From Actinomycetota bacterium (GTDB taxonomy: Bacteria > Armatimonadota > SYMT01), in NCBI GenBank assembly GCA_005798285.1, contig SYKE01000059.1, positions 1 through 52,398 of the forward strand: DNA of 52,398 nt. Direction: 5' to 3'. Under the pieces are notes generated by a model. The model did no database searches. It was given only the letters and a program-made list of their open reading frames with translations, and was not told the origin of the DNA. This document shows, piece by piece, positions 3,947 to 12,807 of this stretch (its first letter is position 1; each line of letters begins with the position of its first letter). A program made the translations under genes and the position numbers.

Positions 3947-4825
3947 TCATGCTTTGAGGGCGCCGGAGGTGAGTCCGGCGATGAAAGAGCGCATGGTGAG
4001 CAGGAAGAGCAGCAGCAGCGGGATGGACGCCAGTACGTAACCGGCCATCAAGGGTCCGTAGGTGGTCTGGTAGGCGCCGCGGAAGAAGGCGAGGCCGATG
4101 CTGAGGGTCTTCTTCGACTCCTCCGACAGCACAATGAGCGGCCACACATAGTCGTTCCAGGTGGAGAGCGTGGTCATCACGGCGACGGTGGCGAGGATGG
4201 GGCGGGAGAGCGGCACGGCGATGGCGCCGAAGAGCCGCCACTCCGAGGCGCCGTCGAGACGGGCGGCCTCGAACAGCTCTTCGGGCAGGGCGGCGATGAA
4301 GCTCCGCAGGATGAAGATGGCGAACACCTGACCGCCGGCGACGTAAGGCAGAACCAGGGCCCAGTGGGTGTTGAGCAGACCCGTTCCGCCGCTGCCCCAC
4401 AGGTCGTTTCCGCCGGTCAGCGGGAACTGCTTCATCCACATAAACGCCGAGACCAGGGTGAGAACGCCCGGCACCATCATCAGCGCGAGGATGGCGTAGA
4501 ACAGCGTTTCTCGACCCGGGAAGCGGTGTCGGGCGAAGGCGTAGGCGCTGAGCGACGCGACGAACAACGTGCCGATGACCGTGCTCACCGTCACTACCAC
4601 ACTGTTGATCGCGTACGGCGAGATGGCTTCCCACGCCTGCCGGTAGTTGTCCCACTGAGGTGGAGATGGGAAACCCCAGAAGTCGTGAAAGAACTGGGTG
4701 TTGTCCTTGAACGAGGTGAGGATCAGGAAGTAGAAGGGGTAGAAGGTCAGCAGCAGGAGCAGCCCTAATCCGAGGTGGATCGGGAGGTCTCGCATCGCGG
4801 GAGATCGGCTGGCCGAGCGACTCAT
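3947..4825 (-). CDS. ABC sugar importer permease, MalG type
   Basis: This 292-residue inner-membrane protein has six hydrophobic spans. It carries the EAA loop of binding-protein-dependent permeases (FEAARLDGASEWRLF, about residues 187-201), through which it contacts the ATPase. The N-terminus (FYPFYFLILTSFKDN) and the end (LLLLFLLTMRSFIAGLTSGALK) are typical of the MalG/carbohydrate CUT1 group. Its start overlaps the stop of the fused binding-protein/permease gene by 4 bases, so the two are translationally coupled. No ATPase gene is in the window. A shared MsmX/UgpC-like ATPase elsewhere probably energises it, which is common for CUT1 importers. Confidence 0.93.
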   Translation of the reverse strand: MSRSASRSPAMRDLPIHLGLGLLLLLTFYPFYFLILTSFKDNTQFFHDFWGFPSPPQWDNYRQAWEAISPYAINSVVVTVSTVIGTLFVASLSAYAFARHRFPGRETLFYAILALMMVPGVLTLVSAFMWMKQFPLTGGNDLWGSGGTGLLNTHWALVLPYVAGGQVFAIFILRSFIAALPEELFEAARLDGASEWRLFGAIAVPLSRPILATVAVMTTLSTWNDYVWPLIVLSEESKKTLSIGLAFFRGAYQTTYGPLMAGYVLASIPLLLLFLLTMRSFIAGLTSGALKA

Positions 4826-7275
4826 GGCTGATGCTCCGAGCTGGATTTCAGGTACTTCATGTTGAGGTAGGTGATGCCGAGGATCACCAGGAAGAGCGCC
4901 ACCCCGATGGAGCAGGCGTAGCCCATCCGATCGAAGGAGATGGCGTTCTGGTAAAGCTGCATGCCGGGGACCGTGGTCGAAAAGCCGGGTCCGCCGTTGG
5001 TGAGTAGAAGCTGAGTCTGAAACCCCTGCAGTCCGCCGATGAAGCTGAGCACGATCAGCAGCTTGATCTGTCCGAGCAGCAAGGGCAGATCGATGGAGCG
5101 GAACCGGCGGAGCCCGGAGGCGCCGTCGAGTCGGGCCGACTCGAACACATCACCGGAGATGCTCTGCAATCCGGCGTAGTAAATGAGCAGCGCGAAACCG
5201 CCGACCCACGGGAAACCCATGAACATCAGCGAGTAGAGCGCGATCCGGGGGTCTCCCAGCCACGACTGGCGCCACCCACCCGCGCCGACGGCCTCCAGAA
5301 GCTGATTGAGCAGACCGACATTGTCGTCGTAAAGAAACCCCCAGATGAGCAGGATGACCACTCCCGGCACGACCATCGGCACCACGAAGAGCACCCGATA
5401 GAGGTACTGAGCCCGCTCCTTGCGGAGGGCGAAGATCATCTCCGCCGCGATGAGCGGGGCCGTCAGGGTGATCAGGATCTGAGCTCCGAGCAACCGAACG
5501 GTGTTCCAGACGCTGTCTCTCAGGATGTCGTCCGCGAACATCGTCCGAAAGTTCAGCAGGCCGACCCACCGGGTGTCGCCGTTGCCCTTCCACTCGGTAA
5601 AGGCGTGGCCGAGCGCCGAGAGGATGGGGTAGTAGCTGAACAGCCCCAGCAGGATGAAGCTGGGCAGGATGAACAGGTAGCTGATGCGGGCCCGCCGGAT
5701 GGCCGGGCGGCGGAGCGCCACGCCGATCCCCGCAGCAACCGCGAGTCCGGCGCCGGCGAGGAGCGCCCCGGTGGGCGTCTGTCCACCGGGACCGGCGGGA
5801 GTGGGGCTGCTGGGCGGGGGCTGGATCTCCCAGTTGGCGTCAAAACGCCACACATCCGCGTTGTCCTTGAGGGTGATCTCCACGCTTTCTGCGAGGTATC
5901 GATCCAGACGGGCGAGACACTGCTCCTCGGTGTACTCGCCTCCGAGGTAGCCCTGCAGCACGCGGAACAGTCGCTCGTTGTAGAGGGGGCCGGCATCCTC
6001 GCCATTGAATCGAGTGGCGCCCTTTCGCAGCACCTCCATGAACAGGTTCAGGCTGGGCGCCCCGGCGAGGCCCACCACGTTGGGAACAAACAGCTCGGCC
6101 TCTTGAACGAGCGGCTGCAGGTTCTGCGGAGCCGTGATGAAGCGCAGGAAGTCGATGCAGAGCTCCACCTTGTTCGACCGCATGGCCGTGTTGGTGATGC
6201 AGTACTGGATCGACGTCGCGCCGCCGACCCCGCGCGCGCCGACGCTCGAGGCATAGGGGCTCGTCTCGCGAGTGATGGGCGGCACGAGAAAGGAACCGTA
6301 CTCGAACGACCGCAGCTTGTCCTGCCGAATGACCGGCGTGTACCAGCTCCCGTCCCACCACATCGCGACCTTGCCCATTCGAAAGAGGCGGTCGTCGAGG
6401 GCGGCGAGGTGTCCCGGCTGCCAGTAGGCCGACCACTCCTTCAGGATGCGGAGCAGTTCCGAGTAGCGCGGATCGTGGATGGAGAAGATGCCCTTTTTGT
6501 AGGCGCGGACGAACTCCTGCTGGTCCACCCCGGGGAAGCCGTACTCGGTCTGGCGGACGTCCATCTCCGGGACCCGATCGGCCCAGAGCTGGTCGTTCAG
6601 GATCCGGCGCGCCCAGGTGTACCGCATCTCCTGGGAGCCGGTCATCAGGAACGGCAGCACGCCCGCCGCCTTCAGCTTGCGGTGGATCTCCATCCACTCC
6701 GCCCAGCTCTTCGGCGGAACGGCGCCCACGCGTTGGAAGAGCTCCTTGTTGTAAAAGACGCAGGTTTCGACCTGGTCGATGGGCAGGGAGTAGAGGTGAC
6801 CGTCGGGCGCCCGCTTGGCGTTGGTGGCCTCCGGGTAGAACTGATCTCGCCAGCGCTTGTTGCCCTGAGAGCCGGGTGGGCAGTAGGGGTTCGGCTGTTC
6901 GAGGAACGGGTCGAGGTTGACGAACCAGCCGTAGCGGGCATCCTCGTTCGTGAAGGTGGAGTGCGACCACATCACGTCGGGAGCCATGCCCCCCTGAAGC
7001 TGAGTCCGCATCCAGGTGCGAAAGTCGCCCACCGGGCTCTTCGTGAACTCGATCTTCACGCCCGGGTGGAGCCGCTCGAACTCTCGGGCGAGGCGCGTGA
7101 ACTCCTTCAGCGGGCGGGGATTGTCTCCGGTGGTGATCTCCGGAGTGTAGGCCTGCGCAAAGAAGCGCAGCACCGTGTCGGCTGAGGCGGCGCGCGGCCC
7201 CACGCAGCAGGCGATCACGAGCGCCAGGCAGAGCGCGAAACCGGGAGAGAACCGAGCGAACACCACGGCGTGCAC
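4822..7275 (-). CDS. Fused extracellular sugar-binding protein and MalF-type permease
   Basis: This 817-residue protein joins two importer parts. Residues of about 1-32 are a signal peptide (ALVIACCVGPRAASA). About 33-485 are a family 1 solute-binding protein (EFERLHPGVKIEFTKSPVGD, MAPDVMWSHSTF, AMWWDGSWYTP). A Pro/Gly linker (about 487-507) and one extra membrane span lead into a MalF-like permease (about 525-817: YLFILPSFILLGLFSYYP and the EAA loop FESARLDGASGLRRF). The binding protein is thus tethered at the outer face of the inner membrane. The start chosen is GTG at 7275; a later start would still leave a signal peptide. The MalG partner follows with a 4-base overlap. Confidence 0.9.
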   Translation of the reverse strand: MHAVVFARFSPGFALCLALVIACCVGPRAASADTVLRFFAQAYTPEITTGDNPRPLKEFTRLAREFERLHPGVKIEFTKSPVGDFRTWMRTQLQGGMAPDVMWSHSTFTNEDARYGWFVNLDPFLEQPNPYCPPGSQGNKRWRDQFYPEATNAKRAPDGHLYSLPIDQVETCVFYNKELFQRVGAVPPKSWAEWMEIHRKLKAAGVLPFLMTGSQEMRYTWARRILNDQLWADRVPEMDVRQTEYGFPGVDQQEFVRAYKKGIFSIHDPRYSELLRILKEWSAYWQPGHLAALDDRLFRMGKVAMWWDGSWYTPVIRQDKLRSFEYGSFLVPPITRETSPYASSVGARGVGGATSIQYCITNTAMRSNKVELCIDFLRFITAPQNLQPLVQEAELFVPNVVGLAGAPSLNLFMEVLRKGATRFNGEDAGPLYNERLFRVLQGYLGGEYTEEQCLARLDRYLAESVEITLKDNADVWRFDANWEIQPPPSSPTPAGPGGQTPTGALLAGAGLAVAAGIGVALRRPAIRRARISYLFILPSFILLGLFSYYPILSALGHAFTEWKGNGDTRWVGLLNFRTMFADDILRDSVWNTVRLLGAQILITLTAPLIAAEMIFALRKERAQYLYRVLFVVPMVVPGVVILLIWGFLYDDNVGLLNQLLEAVGAGGWRQSWLGDPRIALYSLMFMGFPWVGGFALLIYYAGLQSISGDVFESARLDGASGLRRFRSIDLPLLLGQIKLLIVLSFIGGLQGFQTQLLLTNGGPGFSTTVPGMQLYQNAISFDRMGYACSIGVALFLVILGITYLNMKYLKSSSEHQP

Positions 7276-7895: not shown

Positions 7896-7985
7896 GGCCG
7901 AAGATTCGGGCGCCTGGAGTTGCCCCCTCCGCCTCGCCCCGCGGCATCCGGAAGGAGCAACTTGCGCCACGGGAGGATTTCGAAA

Positions 7986-9380
7986 ATGAACGATATGCAA
8001 TCGCAGAAGGAGACCCTGGTCGCACGTCTGACGTCTCTAAGGTCGCAGCTTGCGGAACTGCGGAGCCAGATCCGAGGTTTTGCGCATTTGCCGGAAGGCG
8101 GCGGCGACGCCGAGGGTGCGCTGGACTGTGCGCAGCAGTCTCTAGAGTCCCAGCAACCGGATCTCGTCTGCGCACGATCCAAACTGGCGAAGGCCCGCGA
8201 CACTCTGGATAAAGCGGATCAAGCCCTCACTCTGCGGAATGCCTATTGGGAGTGGGCGCTGGCCGTTTGGGGAGGGGTCACCCTTCTCTTGAGCTTCTGC
8301 TGGATGGTCAAACTCTGGAGTCAAACCGGTGGCGCCGGCGACGGTGTGGCTACCTACACCATCATTGAGGGCGCGAGGCTGTGGGACTTCACACTAGGCG
8401 GGTTTACCGTCCAATTGGATGCAGCTCAATGGCACGTGCTGCGTCCCGTACTGCTCGCGGCAGCCGGGGGGCTGGCTGGGGCCGGCCTTGCGATCGGTCG
8501 GTTGCTGTACCTCTCCATACCTTCTCGCACTTTGAACCCTAAGAGCATTCTCTGGTATCTCTCATCTCCGATCTATGCGGCAGGTCTGGCGAGCGCCATG
8601 TTTGCAGTCATCCGTGCCGGCCTCCTTGGCGCGGTGGGCCAGCTGCATTCCCAGAGTTCCGGAAGCACCCTGAGCGCTATCGCCCTCGGGTTGTTGGTGG
8701 GATTCGAGCCGACGGCTGTTTTCGAACGCATCAAGGCGGTTGTGCGAGCATTCTTCGGCACCGACGAGGTAAAGGCTCCACGACTGTCGTCGCCCCAGGT
8801 TTCTCTACAGGCAGGAACCTTGACGATCCGGTCGGCCGTGACCGCAAGTCCCGCCACCCGTATCGTCTCGGTGAGCGCCATGCTGCAAACAGATGGTTTC
8901 AAGACAAGTGTCTCGCTGGATCGGGGCGCCGATCACATCTGGTCGGTGAGCTGCCCGGTTCCACAGGCCCTCTTGAAAGCCCCGCACTTTACGGCGACGA
9001 TCGAAGCGCGGGACGAAGCCGGCAATCTCAGCCGCTCAGAGGCGATCAGTGTTTCCATGTCTGCTCCGTCTACTCCTGTTCAGAGTGTTCTCCAGCCTGT
9101 GGTGGTCGTTTCCAGCGCGCCGGCTGAGGGCGGTACACTCGGGGCGGCAGACCCGGTGGTGCTGAACTTCTCCTCGGCGCTGCGGGACCTTGAAGTGACT
9201 TTGACCGCTGCGGATGGGTCGGAGATCGAGTTGGCGAAGGCCTGGGATGATGCCCAGACATCGCTCACCCTATCGCACGCTGCACTGCCGGAGGGCGACT
9301 ATCGCTTGCTCATGGTGAATGCGGTGCTCCCGGATGGGGCCGACTTCGAGTTGGGCCGGGAGTTGCGGTTCAAGGTGTAG
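7986..9380 (+). CDS. Membrane protein with N-terminal coiled coil and C-terminal Ig-like region, unknown function
   Basis: I chose ATG 7986 because a gggagga ribosome-binding site lies 8 bases before it; an open frame extends further upstream but without one. The product has 464 residues. Residues 4-75 look like coiled coil (LVARLTSLRSQLAELRSQI). Four hydrophobic spans lie at about 85-255 (WALAVWGGVTLLLSFCW, VLLAAAGGLAGAGLAIGR, IYAAGLASAMFAVIRAGLL, ALGLLVGFEPTAVF). About 270-464 are two or more beta-rich segments ending in an Ig-like pattern. I do not recognise the family. A receptor- or scaffold-like envelope role is possible. Confidence 0.65.
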   Translation: MNDMQSQKETLVARLTSLRSQLAELRSQIRGFAHLPEGGGDAEGALDCAQQSLESQQPDLVCARSKLAKARDTLDKADQALTLRNAYWEWALAVWGGVTLLLSFCWMVKLWSQTGGAGDGVATYTIIEGARLWDFTLGGFTVQLDAAQWHVLRPVLLAAAGGLAGAGLAIGRLLYLSIPSRTLNPKSILWYLSSPIYAAGLASAMFAVIRAGLLGAVGQLHSQSSGSTLSAIALGLLVGFEPTAVFERIKAVVRAFFGTDEVKAPRLSSPQVSLQAGTLTIRSAVTASPATRIVSVSAMLQTDGFKTSVSLDRGADHIWSVSCPVPQALLKAPHFTATIEARDEAGNLSRSEAISVSMSAPSTPVQSVLQPVVVVSSAPAEGGTLGAADPVVLNFSSALRDLEVTLTAADGSEIELAKAWDDAQTSLTLSHAALPEGDYRLLMVNAVLPDGADFELGRELRFKV

Positions 9381-9444: not shown

Positions 9445-10005
9445 TCACGCGCGGCGACGGTGAGCTGGTTCCAGCACCAGGGTGAGTCGGGGTCTGGGCG
9501 TTCCAAGCGGGTCGCCCCGAAGCAGGCTGCGTTGCAGATTCACCACGGGAAACCGGTAAACGACGAGTCTCGGTAGAACTCCAAGCCCGCCTGCTGCCTC
9601 GATCAGTCGGGAGCCTTCGTAGCGAGCCAGCTCCGAAATCCAGGGTGGGACCTCTCCGTCGGGCAAGGCGGCCAGTGCGCGACTCAGACCCCGCGCATCC
9701 TCGGCCGGCTTGTCGAGGCCGCCGGGAGGGTGTTGCTCCAGGTAGGTCCGGGCGAGCGGACCGAACCGGTCGCCGAGCGCCCGCTCGGTGGCCGGGAGCA
9801 ACCCCCGGATCTCCACCAGGCGCTTGTGGATCAGCGAGTGCGCGAACGCTCGGATCTCCACCTCACACCGGCCGATGGCCGCGATCCGGGCGGCCGGGAG
9901 GTTCGCCTCCTGCCCCACGGTTGCCGGGTCGGCGAAGAACCGATCCCGGTAGGAACCATCGACGAAGAGTCTCGCCAGGAGCGCTTGTTCGCGGGCTAGT
10001 CCCAC
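9445..10005 (-). CDS. Putative DUF692 partner protein (HvfC/MbnC-like role)
   Basis: The 186-residue product starts at GTG 10005, ten bases inside the end of the DUF692 gene and preceded by aaaggcgg. The longer open frame upstream is only the shadow of the DUF692 gene. The protein is soluble and mainly helical at the start (FVDGSYRDRFFADPATV, IRAFAHSLIHKRLVEIRGLL). The C-terminal part carries ISELARYEGSRLIEA and RLVVYRFPVVNLQ. Partner proteins that follow DUF692 enzymes (DUF2063/HvfC, MbnC, TglI) have a similar size, position and an E-x-x-R/Y-E helix. I infer a substrate-binding partner from position and pattern; sequence identity to any named family is unproven. Confidence 0.55.
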   Translation of the reverse strand: MGLAREQALLARLFVDGSYRDRFFADPATVGQEANLPAARIAAIGRCEVEIRAFAHSLIHKRLVEIRGLLPATERALGDRFGPLARTYLEQHPPGGLDKPAEDARGLSRALAALPDGEVPPWISELARYEGSRLIEAAGGLGVLPRLVVYRFPVVNLQRSLLRGDPLGTPRPRLTLVLEPAHRRRA

Positions 10006-10910
10006 CGACCCGCCTTTCGACCGATCTCCCGGGCGCGCTCCAACTCCGGTCGGAGCTCGGCAAGGGCCGGGATGTTTCGATCCCGTTCGAGGACCATGCC
10101 GCGGAGCGGACAACGCGCGGCGACCTCGGCGAGCAGTTCCCACACCGGCTCCGGAGTCTCGGAACCGTGATCGTCTACCCACGTGTCGCCGCGCCGTGCC
10201 CAGCCGACGTAGTGGGTCTGCACCACTCGCTCCAGCGGAAGCTGGTCCAGATACTCCGAGGGATCGAAGCTGAGGTTGGCCGCGTTCACGAGGAGGTTGG
10301 TCACGTCCAACAACAGCCCGCAGCCGGTGCGCTCCGTCAGTTCGGTGAGGAACTGAGGCTCGGTGAGTTCATCGCCGGGGAGGCGAAACGGGGTGGTGAT
10401 GTTCTCCAGGATCAGCGGCGCCGGAATGCGGCGTTGCGCCGCGTGAATGTTGGCGCACAGAAAATCCAGCGCTTCTCGCGTGAGTGGCAGTGCGGCGAGG
10501 TGACCGATGGCGACCCCATCCGCACGCGTGTACGCAATGTGCTCGCTCCACCAGGGAGGATCTATTGCTTCGACGACTCGGGCCAGACGGTCCAGATAGG
10601 CCGGATCGAGTCCCTCCGCGCTACCCAGAGAGAGATCCAGCCCGTGCGGGATCAGGGGGAAGTGCGCCTGGAGCAGCGCCAGCTCGGACTGCACCGCCGG
10701 GTCGGCGCTCATGAAGTGATCCGCCACGATTTCGAGAAAGTCGATCCCCCGACGATCCAGAAACAACTCGCCCCGATGCACTCTACGGTAACCCAACCCC
10801 GAACCCAGAGCGGGAAGTTCCGTGCTCTGCCCGAGTGCCCCCCTCTCAGCCTTCCCCAACGCAGTCCCCTCCGTCCGATGCACAGCTGCCGAAGTGTCCT
10901 CCCGCGTCAC
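9996..10910 (-). CDS. DUF692 family iron-dependent peptide-modifying enzyme
   Basis: This 304-residue TIM-barrel protein shows the DUF692 (UPF0276) hallmarks in order: LGSGLGYR, FLEIVADHFM, PLIPHGLDLSLGS, WWSEHIAYT, LILENITTPFRLPG, GLLLDVTNLLVNAANL, VVQTHYVGW, DDHG and VLERD. The His, Glu, Asp and Asn residues in these motifs are the usual metal ligands. Characterised members (MbnB, TglH, ChrH) use a multi-iron centre to oxidise cysteines in ribosomal peptides. I chose GTG 10910, which overlaps the previous stop by 4 bases (GTGA) exactly as the gene pair upstream does. GTG 10883, behind gggagga, is an alternative. The substrate is probably the Cys/Gly tail encoded at 11803. Confidence 0.88.
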   Translation of the reverse strand: MTREDTSAAVHRTEGTALGKAERGALGQSTELPALGSGLGYRRVHRGELFLDRRGIDFLEIVADHFMSADPAVQSELALLQAHFPLIPHGLDLSLGSAEGLDPAYLDRLARVVEAIDPPWWSEHIAYTRADGVAIGHLAALPLTREALDFLCANIHAAQRRIPAPLILENITTPFRLPGDELTEPQFLTELTERTGCGLLLDVTNLLVNAANLSFDPSEYLDQLPLERVVQTHYVGWARRGDTWVDDHGSETPEPVWELLAEVAARCPLRGMVLERDRNIPALAELRPELERAREIGRKAGRWD

Positions 10911-11806
10911 TTGTCGATCTCGAAGGGGTTCGCAAAAGGATCTCCCCACCCGGCGGCATCAAACCCGTGGAGAGTTTGCGGCAACAAGAATCGCTGGGCG
11001 AGCCACAGCATCGGCGGCAGTGAAAACCTGTTGAAGAATTGCGTCCAGTCGCTCCATGGAGTTCCGCTCAGAGCGCGGATGCCGGCTGCCGCCACCAGCA
11101 TGTCCGGGGTCGTCGTACCTGTCGTGATCGCCTCCCTTCGTTGACGCAGGAAGGCTCTGCCTTCACGGGTCCACGGGCCACGATCCCAATGAACCGTTGA
11201 AGCGAGGGACAGCAATGACACCAGGACGAGCGGCGCATAGAGAGATACACCGACTCCTCCGCCGTGAGGATGACTCCACCTCCACAACGTTCCTGCTGCT
11301 GCAAGTAGCAGAGCTGCCGCAATGCCTGCTCCCCATCGGCACTGCCCCGGCAAAGGTGAGCCCGCCATGTAGCCACGCTGAATGAGTCTCTCCTCGTAGT
11401 TGCGACAGAGGTCCTTCATTCGATCCAGAAGTCGCAGGTCGGAGAGCATCCATCGTGACAGGGGACGAAAGGCGGCCGCCAGAATCACTCGCTCCAGAAG
11501 TTGCTCCGGGAGGTCTTCATCCGAGGTCGAGGAGCGGCGCATCTGGACGTGACGTCGACGAACTCCTCGTGGCGATTCTTGCAGGAGTCGGCGCCCCAGA
11601 AGCGATACGACGGCGGTTTGGACCACTCCGTTCACGCCGTCCCGCAGGAAGGCAATCTCATAGACGTCTGGAGTTTCGGTAAGCACCGAATGTCCGCTGG
11701 CGCGCGGAGCCTTTTGCATGATCCAGAAGCGCAGGACTGCGTGGACTGCGACAGCAGCGACGAAGTACAGAGCCGCTGCCCCCGACGGCAAGAGCGAACC
11801 GTTCAC
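10907..11806 (-). CDS. TIGR04222-like membrane protein without Cys/Gly tail
   Basis: This 299-residue protein is a divergent paralogue of the next gene. It has an N-terminal span (ALYFVAAVAVHAVLRFWIM), then PDVYEIAFLRDGVNGVVQTA, matching the TIGR04222 hallmark 'DPYEvAyLaGG---V--A' but with DG in place of GG. Two further spans follow (AGIAAALLLAAAGTLW and VSLYAPLVLVSLLSLAS). It lacks the fourth span and ends FANPFEIDK with no cysteine tail. The start GTG overlaps the stop of the tailed paralogue by 4 bases, and its stop overlaps the DUF692 start by 4. It may scaffold the tailed protein. Confidence 0.75.
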   Translation of the reverse strand: MNGSLLPSGAAALYFVAAVAVHAVLRFWIMQKAPRASGHSVLTETPDVYEIAFLRDGVNGVVQTAVVSLLGRRLLQESPRGVRRRHVQMRRSSTSDEDLPEQLLERVILAAAFRPLSRWMLSDLRLLDRMKDLCRNYEERLIQRGYMAGSPLPGQCRWGAGIAAALLLAAAGTLWRWSHPHGGGVGVSLYAPLVLVSLLSLASTVHWDRGPWTREGRAFLRQRREAITTGTTTPDMLVAAAGIRALSGTPWSDWTQFFNRFSLPPMLWLAQRFLLPQTLHGFDAAGWGDPFANPFEIDK

Positions 11807-12807
11807 CCTCCGCAGCCCCCGCCTCCACAGCCTCCGCCGCCGCAGCCTCCGCCTCCGCCGCCACAGCTTGAGCCGCAGCCGATCGCCGCGCCGCAGCCTG
11901 CCGATCCGCCGTCCGCCTTCGTGGCGGCGCGCTGGAAGAAGCTGGGATAGGCCGCGAAGGAGGTCTGCGAGAGAATCCCTACACCGAAGGTTGCGACGAC
12001 CAGCGGCAGCAGCCCGCCCCAGGCGGCGCTCCGATCGGTGGAGAGAAGCTGCTCTCGCATCGGCGTGAAGGCGGTTCGTGCACTGGAAAGGAAGCGTTGG
12101 CCCGCCTGCGTCAGGCGCCGTCGCGACACCCGTACCGTGACCGGCAGCAACGCGGTTGAGATCAGCCAGAAGAGGATCAACAGGCCGATGTTCTTTCGTC
12201 CGTAGTGCGAGGCCTCCAGCAGCCGGTAGGCCGTGAGGGTGAAGAGAAACCCGGCGCCCGCCAGCCCGGCGAGAATGCGAGGGAAGTCCGGGGGAGCTAC
12301 ACAGAGCAGTCCCCGGTGGGTGAGATCCCGCTCATAGGTCTGGCACTGTGAGTGAATTCCGGCTCTCACCGCTCCATCGAAGAGCTCCCGGGCCGAAGCG
12401 CTGGCCCGAAGTGTCGTGAGTACGGAGCGCTCCACCGGGTGACGGATGTCGGCATCGGCGACCCGATCAGCCGGCATCAACACGGTGTCCTTGCCGCCGG
12501 GCTTTTCAGTGTCCAGCGTCAGATCGCCTCGCTCCACCAGCGCCGCGACCGCGGTTCGGAGCACATGCTCCTCGCCGCCGTGGAGGTACGCGATCTCGTA
12601 GGGATCCGGCTGCAAGGGGAGCGATTCGTCGGCCGCCGGGTCTGCTGGAAGCGCGCGGAGCACCGCAAAGCGTACGCCCAAGTGCGTCGCCACTGCGGCA
12701 ATCAGATAGAGCACAAGGAATTGCGGACCGCTGAGGTCCGCGAGGGGGTTTTGAAATAACCAATCCACCAGGGTTCTTCCTGTCTGGACATCCGAAGTGC
12801 CGGACAT
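11803..12807 (-). CDS. TIGR04222-like membrane protein with a Cys/Gly-only C-terminal tail (candidate DUF692 substrate)
   Basis: This 334-residue protein starts with a span (FLVLYLIAAVATHLGVRF). It then has the TIGR04222 hallmark DPYEIAYLHGGEEHVLRTA, a soluble helical region, and three more spans ending GGLLPLVVATFGVGIL. After SFFQRAATKADGGSA, the last 31 residues are almost pure Gly and Cys, with six cysteines in the pattern GCG, GCG, SCG, G6C, G4C, G4C, GG-stop. I chose ATG 12807 by alignment with the paralogue; the open frame extends 85 codons further without homologous sequence. As I recall, TIGR04222 was defined on such tails and is often found beside DUF692 genes. The tail would lie on one membrane face for modification. 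Confidence 0.8.
   Translation of the reverse strand: MSGTSDVQTGRTLVDWLFQNPLADLSGPQFLVLYLIAAVATHLGVRFAVLRALPADPAADESLPLQPDPYEIAYLHGGEEHVLRTAVAALVERGDLTLDTEKPGGKDTVLMPADRVADADIRHPVERSVLTTLRASASARELFDGAVRAGIHSQCQTYERDLTHRGLLCVAPPDFPRILAGLAGAGFLFTLTAYRLLEASHYGRKNIGLLILFWLISTALLPVTVRVSRRRLTQAGQRFLSSARTAFTPMREQLLSTDRSAAWGGLLPLVVATFGVGILSQTSFAAYPSFFQRAATKADGGSAGCGAAIGCGSSCGGGGGGCGGGGCGGGGCGG

Follow-up and report, generated by a model that had tools for sequence, protein, structure and literature searches.

A four-gene TIGR04222-MNIO operon encoding a membrane protein whose Cys/Gly tail is a candidate enzyme substrate

The DNA analyzed here (the window, that is, the whole 52,398-nucleotide stretch of contig SYKE01000059.1) carries a compact operon in which two TIGR04222 genes precede genes for an MNIO (DUF692) enzyme, of the iron-dependent type that modifies peptides, and a small partner-like protein. 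Four minus-strand open reading frames (ORFs) fill positions 9445-12807 with successive overlaps of 4, 4 and 10 bases, and every ORF and overlap described in the original prediction, which was made from the sequence alone, was reproduced. The features are as follows.

11803-12807, minus strand: tigA, TIGR04222 membrane protein of 334 aa with an ATG start and a C-terminal Cys/Gly tail; tailed homologues occur at other loci in two phyla.
11806-11910, minus strand: Cys/Gly tail of TigA (residues 300-334), the proposed substrate, delimited by its sequence and by tail comparison.
12478-12603, minus strand: winged-helix-like stretch of TigA (residues ~69-110) within the DUF2207_C-related region, as suggested by AlphaFold2 secondary structure of low to moderate confidence.
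10907-11806, minus strand: tigB, tail-less TIGR04222 paralogue of 299 aa with a GTG start and a 4-base overlap with the tigA stop.
9996-10910, minus strand: MNIO (DUF692) enzyme gene, 304 aa, GTG start, 277 bits against PF05114.
9445-10005, minus strand: pme, partner-like protein (PME-type 2-like) of 186 aa with a GTG start and a 10-base overlap with the MNIO stop.

The assignments to TIGR04222 and DUF692 held in hidden Markov model (HMM) searches, where TigA and TigB scored 91.8 and 68.0 bits against TIGR04222 (NCBIfam, cut-off 43) and the enzyme far exceeded the Pfam cut-off of 25 for PF05114. The operon is bordered by 64 bp downstream and ~250 bp upstream, and G+C content at third codon positions is 0.65-0.76 across all four genes, near the values of neighboring genes. 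The source genome, a draft of 5.04 Mb in 326 contigs with 69% completeness, yielded one MNIO gene and two TIGR04222 genes (tigA and tigB).

Co-occurrence of TIGR04222 and DUF692 genes, which the original prediction had mentioned, was borne out by a neighborhood survey of 291 genomes of the window's phylum and a sample of ~390 genomes from a second phylum, to which Uabimicrobium amorphum belongs. The TIGR04222-MNIO-partner module was found at 14 loci in the two phyla, always in the same order. In the window's phylum, TIGR04222 exceeded its cut-off in 22 of the 291 genomes and a full-length MNIO (262-349 bits) was present in eight, seven of which have TIGR04222 upstream on the same strand (Fisher p = 4e-8, a calculation that ignores shared ancestry). 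Seventeen genomes of the second phylum had TIGR04222 over the cut-off, with an MNIO downstream in seven of them. Candidate MNIO start codons lie at a 4-base overlap in several loci, which points to translational coupling, and at locus L052 the gap between the TIGR04222 and MNIO genes reaches ~1 kb. A search of the genome contigs with the window MNIO alone returned a single relative.

The window MNIO retains its catalytic residues. Its ligands H89, H124, E169, D202, N205, H233, D246, H248 and E275 and the catalytic D277 are invariant in a 12-sequence alignment, and they align with each iron ligand and the base of VcMbnB (H55, H91, E135, D165, N168, H194, D209, H211, E238 and D240; PMC8888699). 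Relatives in the PDB are 3bww, 8hci and 7dz9. The nearest NCBIfam model is that of the bufferin maturase BufB (NF050167), which the enzyme matches at 234.6 bits, under the cut-off of 310, and the methanobactin model TIGR04159 is matched at 50.5 bits (cut-off 325). The residue following the catalytic Asp is Phe in FonB and Asp in Cys-Lys enzymes (PMC13097082). It is Glu in most TIGR04222-linked MNIOs and Arg in the window MNIO, from which we infer that the TIGR04222-linked enzymes form a different specificity group. FonB, an MNIO that produces 5-thiooxazoles, favors a Cys-Gly dyad (PMC13097082), and the Cys-Gly dyads of TigA suit the known thiooxazole-forming MNIOs. The original description of MNIOs as enzymes that modify cysteines is too narrow for the family in general, as some target Asp, Asn or Phe (PMC12452194).

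The TigA tail (GGSAGCGAAIGCGSSCGGGGGGCGGGGCGGGGCGG) holds six Cys residues (305, 311, 315, 322, 327 and 332), each followed by Gly, and within the draft genome the pattern CGGGGCGG is unique to it. All 14 MNIO-linked TIGR04222 proteins end in a tail of 5-8 Cys, and 69 of the 82 tail Cys residues precede Gly. TigB ends without such a tail and is the sister of TigA in our tree (Shimodaira-Hasegawa-like approximate likelihood ratio test, SH-aLRT, 91). Uabimicrobium amorphum (L080 / L125, 5.96 Mb) offers a parallel to tigA/tigB: its tailed TIGR04222 gene is linked to an MNIO gene, and another TIGR04222 gene, at a distant position, lacks the tail; this tail-less copy is likewise the sister of its own tailed copy (SH-aLRT 93). 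As each tail-less copy is sister to the tailed copy of its own genome, duplication with tail loss probably occurred twice, with moderate support and on long branches. Both genomes keep a tailed copy in the MNIO operon, which is in line with a requirement of the MNIO for the tail, subject to the same moderate support and long branches.

The tail as the substrate of the MNIO is the best reading of the operon, although it is unproven and, in our judgment, stands at an even chance. Several observations weigh against it. Among tailed TIGR04222 proteins that lack an adjacent MNIO, all 22 that could be assessed also carry a CGG-rich tail of 3-8 Cys; the median number of tail Cys is six in linked and unlinked proteins alike, and the CGGC motif is found in 13 of 14 linked and 21 of 22 unlinked tails. 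In one family, a dozen genomes with completeness of 91-99% encode tailed TIGR04222 and have zero MNIO matches. A long TIGR04222 form with an N-terminal domain (AGHPV..WHLHL-type motif) bears the same Cys/Gly tail and is never linked to an MNIO (0 of 20). In addition, the partner aligned with DUF2063 at a probability of only 6% by hhalign, and the literature searched contained no experimental test of a TIGR04222-MNIO system, in keeping with the earlier remark that the product is uncharacterized. Like tails occur on proteins without an adjacent MNIO, including those of MNIO-free genomes, and hence possession of the tail cannot serve to diagnose modification by an MNIO; as an MNIO-specific signature it was rejected, linked and unlinked tails being not visibly different.

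In these sequence comparisons it is architecture, not the tail, that separates MNIO-linked from unlinked TIGR04222 proteins. Of 19 stand-alone proteins, 14 are linked to an MNIO, a comparison with the long form that ignores ancestry. The long fused form was seen at loci L059-L070, L110-L113 and L119, and in two loci the AGHPV..WHLHL-type domain adjoins TIGR04222 as a neighbor and is not fused to it. In a quick tree, a branch with SH-aLRT 97 separates a group of 11 linked proteins, the two tail-less copies and three further proteins from a group that comprises the fused forms and three linked proteins. Since linked proteins fall on both sides, the MNIO link has probably been gained or lost more than once.

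The small partner-like protein of the original prediction belongs to a conserved family detected after the MNIO in 12 of 14 loci, by an HMM that was built with several of the 14 counted loci, one of them added by eye. Its proposed membership in DUF2063 fared less well: the HMM check gave no match, no other Pfam family was matched, and with the weak hhalign result DUF2063 membership was set aside. Pme weakly matches an NHLP-clan leader model for ribosomally synthesized and post-translationally modified peptides (RiPPs; 22.8 bits, cut-off 40), and the HvfC model matches one Pme homologue at E 8e-4. The one consistent structural hint is a 43-residue SonA-leader-like stretch, taken from a low-confidence model. 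The pme gene directly follows the MNIO gene, the position of PME-type 2 partners, and Pme may be weakly classed as PME-type 2-like.

A separate short precursor had not been seen by the original prediction, and the narrow borders of the operon agree with this. When all ORFs of at least 22 aa from 12 of the 14 loci were compared with one another, no precursor common to the loci emerged either. What recurs in these 12 loci is limited to three families, tig, mnio and pme, with the frames antisense to them, so there is no hidden precursor shared among them, and a separate short precursor nearby was rejected.

By profile comparison, TIGR04222 is homologous to DUF2207_C (hhalign 97.8%, E 7e-13, 157 columns). 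Pfam DUF2207_C was found in three TIGR04222 homologues at E 0.012-0.11, below cut-off, and TigA itself had no match in Pfam. A related family directs attention to a second enzyme. Of 21 loci encoding a DUF2207/TIGR04222-like protein that ends in a conserved (CHSA)n tail, 19 have a PqqD-radical SAM-SPASM enzyme alongside it (11 of 12 in the window's phylum and eight of nine examined in the second). This CHSA-tailed family aligns with DUF2207 at 97.4% by hhalign and with TIGR04222 at 86% (E 5e-6). Over 66 pairs, median identity is 24% in the body and 84% in the tail, and in each single pair the tail is more conserved than the body. The radical SAM enzyme reached no NCBIfam cut-off among the matches listed, and no description of the CHSA-tailed family with its enzyme was found in the literature searched. 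The (CHSA)n tail comprises ~50 residues with Cys and His (L074:6418-9669, L075:333-3621, L161-L169, L171 and L182-L190). At L170:4578-7974, a variant of the family has a Gly/Ala/Cys tail (GGGGGGACACACASCACACAGGGR), and the radical SAM enzyme again comes after it.

These pairings suggest that one kind of membrane scaffold bears Cys tails beside two unrelated peptide-modifying enzymes, and by analogy a Cys tail beside a radical SAM enzyme in the sister family is the strongest indirect support for the tail as a substrate. More tentatively, and with the balance leaning against it, TIGR04222 and DUF2207-like proteins may constitute one scaffold superfamily that offers C-terminal Cys tails to unrelated enzymes (MNIO; PqqD-radical SAM-SPASM), the product being a modified membrane-anchored protein and not a released RiPP.

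The location of the tail, periplasmic or cytoplasmic, would depend on a segment directly before it. In the TigA family three helices look transmembrane, and this fourth candidate segment has a median insertion energy of +3.1, against -0.8, +1.4 and -0.6 for the first three (rough, home-made values for segments set by alignment columns). It corresponds to a soluble helix of DUF2207, and the AlphaFold2 helix at residues 268-280 of TigA is short and of low confidence. Antoine et al. 2025 place the TIGR04222 tail in the periplasm (PMC12452194); if the fourth segment stays uninserted, the tail would be cytoplasmic, on the enzyme's side. It is plausible that the tail is kept on the membrane, as the original prediction had it. 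The AlphaFold models of TigA and the partner (predicted local distance difference test 55 and 58) are of low confidence because the alignments took in only the window and L033 sequences, and fold searches of the PDB with these low-confidence models returned no significant match.

Taken together, TigA would be a polytopic protein of the inner membrane in which a soluble, winged-helix-like domain is combined with a flexible Cys/Gly tail at the C terminus. The small partner would dock the MNIO, which would oxidize several tail cysteines in the cytoplasm, most likely turning each Cys-Gly dyad into a 5-thiooxazole or into a similar heterocycle formed from Cys. The outcome would be a membrane-anchored metal-binding tail, probably for copper, and not a released peptide. 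TigB would be a duplicate that lost its tail and may pair with TigA or help to position it. As a whole, we regard this mechanism as no less likely to be right than wrong.

The alternative that survives best, which we consider possible but distinctly less likely, is that the tail acts unmodified in all TIGR04222 proteins, as thiol ligands for metals or in redox or assembly, while the MNIO targets another part of TigA/TigB or a peptide encoded elsewhere and the operon link reflects a shared stress response. That MNIO-free genomes and the fused long form have the same kind of tail speaks for this, as does the report that one third of TIGR04222 genomes lack an MNIO (Antoine et al. 2025, PMC12452194). 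The strict, coupled order of the module argues against it, as do the lack of any other common candidate substrate in the 12 loci and the MNIO association in at least two TIGR04222 branches. It is rather improbable that the TIGR04222 pair is a membrane device (an anchor, sensor or exporter, like DUF2207) for the MNIO product, with a generic low-complexity tail that is not the substrate. Homologous DUF2207_C members also end in Gly-rich tails, which lack Cys, and tail-less copies exist in the window operon and, unlinked, in Uabimicrobium; however, both of these genomes retain a tailed copy in the MNIO operon, and Cys is kept in all tails adjoining an MNIO. A chance neighborhood without functional link, for which a fragmented assembly (326 contigs, 69% complete) might leave room, is effectively refuted by the same module at 14 loci of two phyla, the 4-10 base overlaps and the Fisher p of 4e-8.

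The proposal of the tail as a substrate that we favor is not new. From genome mining, Antoine et al. 2025 described the TIGR04222-MNIO association, PME-type 2 partners, Cys/Gly/Ser tails and MNIO-free genomes, and independently proposed subsets of TIGR04222 proteins as MNIO substrates (PMC12452194). The window operon adds a member to this known, uncharacterized kind, sharing with it a Cys-tailed TIGR04222 gene upstream of the MNIO, a PME-type 2-like partner and the lack of a DUF2063 gene. It differs in the tail-less TIGR04222 gene between the tailed gene and the MNIO, an arrangement present in none of the 13 other linked loci, and in its lineage, which we infer to lie outside the Actinomycetota, where most clusters were reported. 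The paralogue pair, the comparison of linked and unlinked tails and the fused/stand-alone split go beyond that study, as do the kinship with DUF2207, the doubt over topology and the radical SAM-linked sister family.

With the bufferins and captophorins (BufA-BufB-BufC; fontiphorin; oxazolin), the operon shares a BufB-nearest MNIO, Cys-Gly dyads and a partner, and Cys targets are likely in both. Their precursors carry a Sec signal peptide and come with a partner of PME-type 1 (DUF2063), whereas the window has a polytopic membrane protein as candidate substrate. With its MNIO under the NF050167 cut-off, no DUF2063 match and no separate precursor, the operon falls outside the bufferins. Methanobactin MbnABC resembles it in the MNIO fold, the iron ligands and a Cys-Gly next to the catalytic Asp, but has a short free precursor and an MbnC partner. 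The TIGR04222 region matches the winged-helix and two-transmembrane part of DUF2207_C (YciQ-like) and both have Gly-rich tails; DUF2207, unlike TIGR04222, has a large N-terminal domain, a Cys-free tail and no MNIO link in the loci read.

Thousands of TIGR04222 proteins are known, none with a tested function in the literature searched. Modification of the tail in place would mean that MNIO chemistry acts on integral membrane proteins as well as on released peptides, and that it defines a metal-binding surface fixed to the membrane. The comparison groups now available (tails without an MNIO, a tail-less copy in the operon and the radical SAM-linked sister family) make the substrate question directly testable.

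The convergent neighbor of the operon (7983-9380, plus strand) has a C-terminal CopC-like domain (PF04234, 25.1 bits, cut-off 23.3). This domain has no obvious copper-binding His motif and is probably an Ig-like fold. Although it adjoins an operon suspected to be of a copper type, the copper context that it might have provided was too weak to be used as evidence. Further along, one 817-aa gene (4822-7275, minus strand) fuses an SBP_bac_1 extracellular solute-binding protein with a BPD_transp_1 ATP-binding cassette permease, which are normally encoded by two genes.

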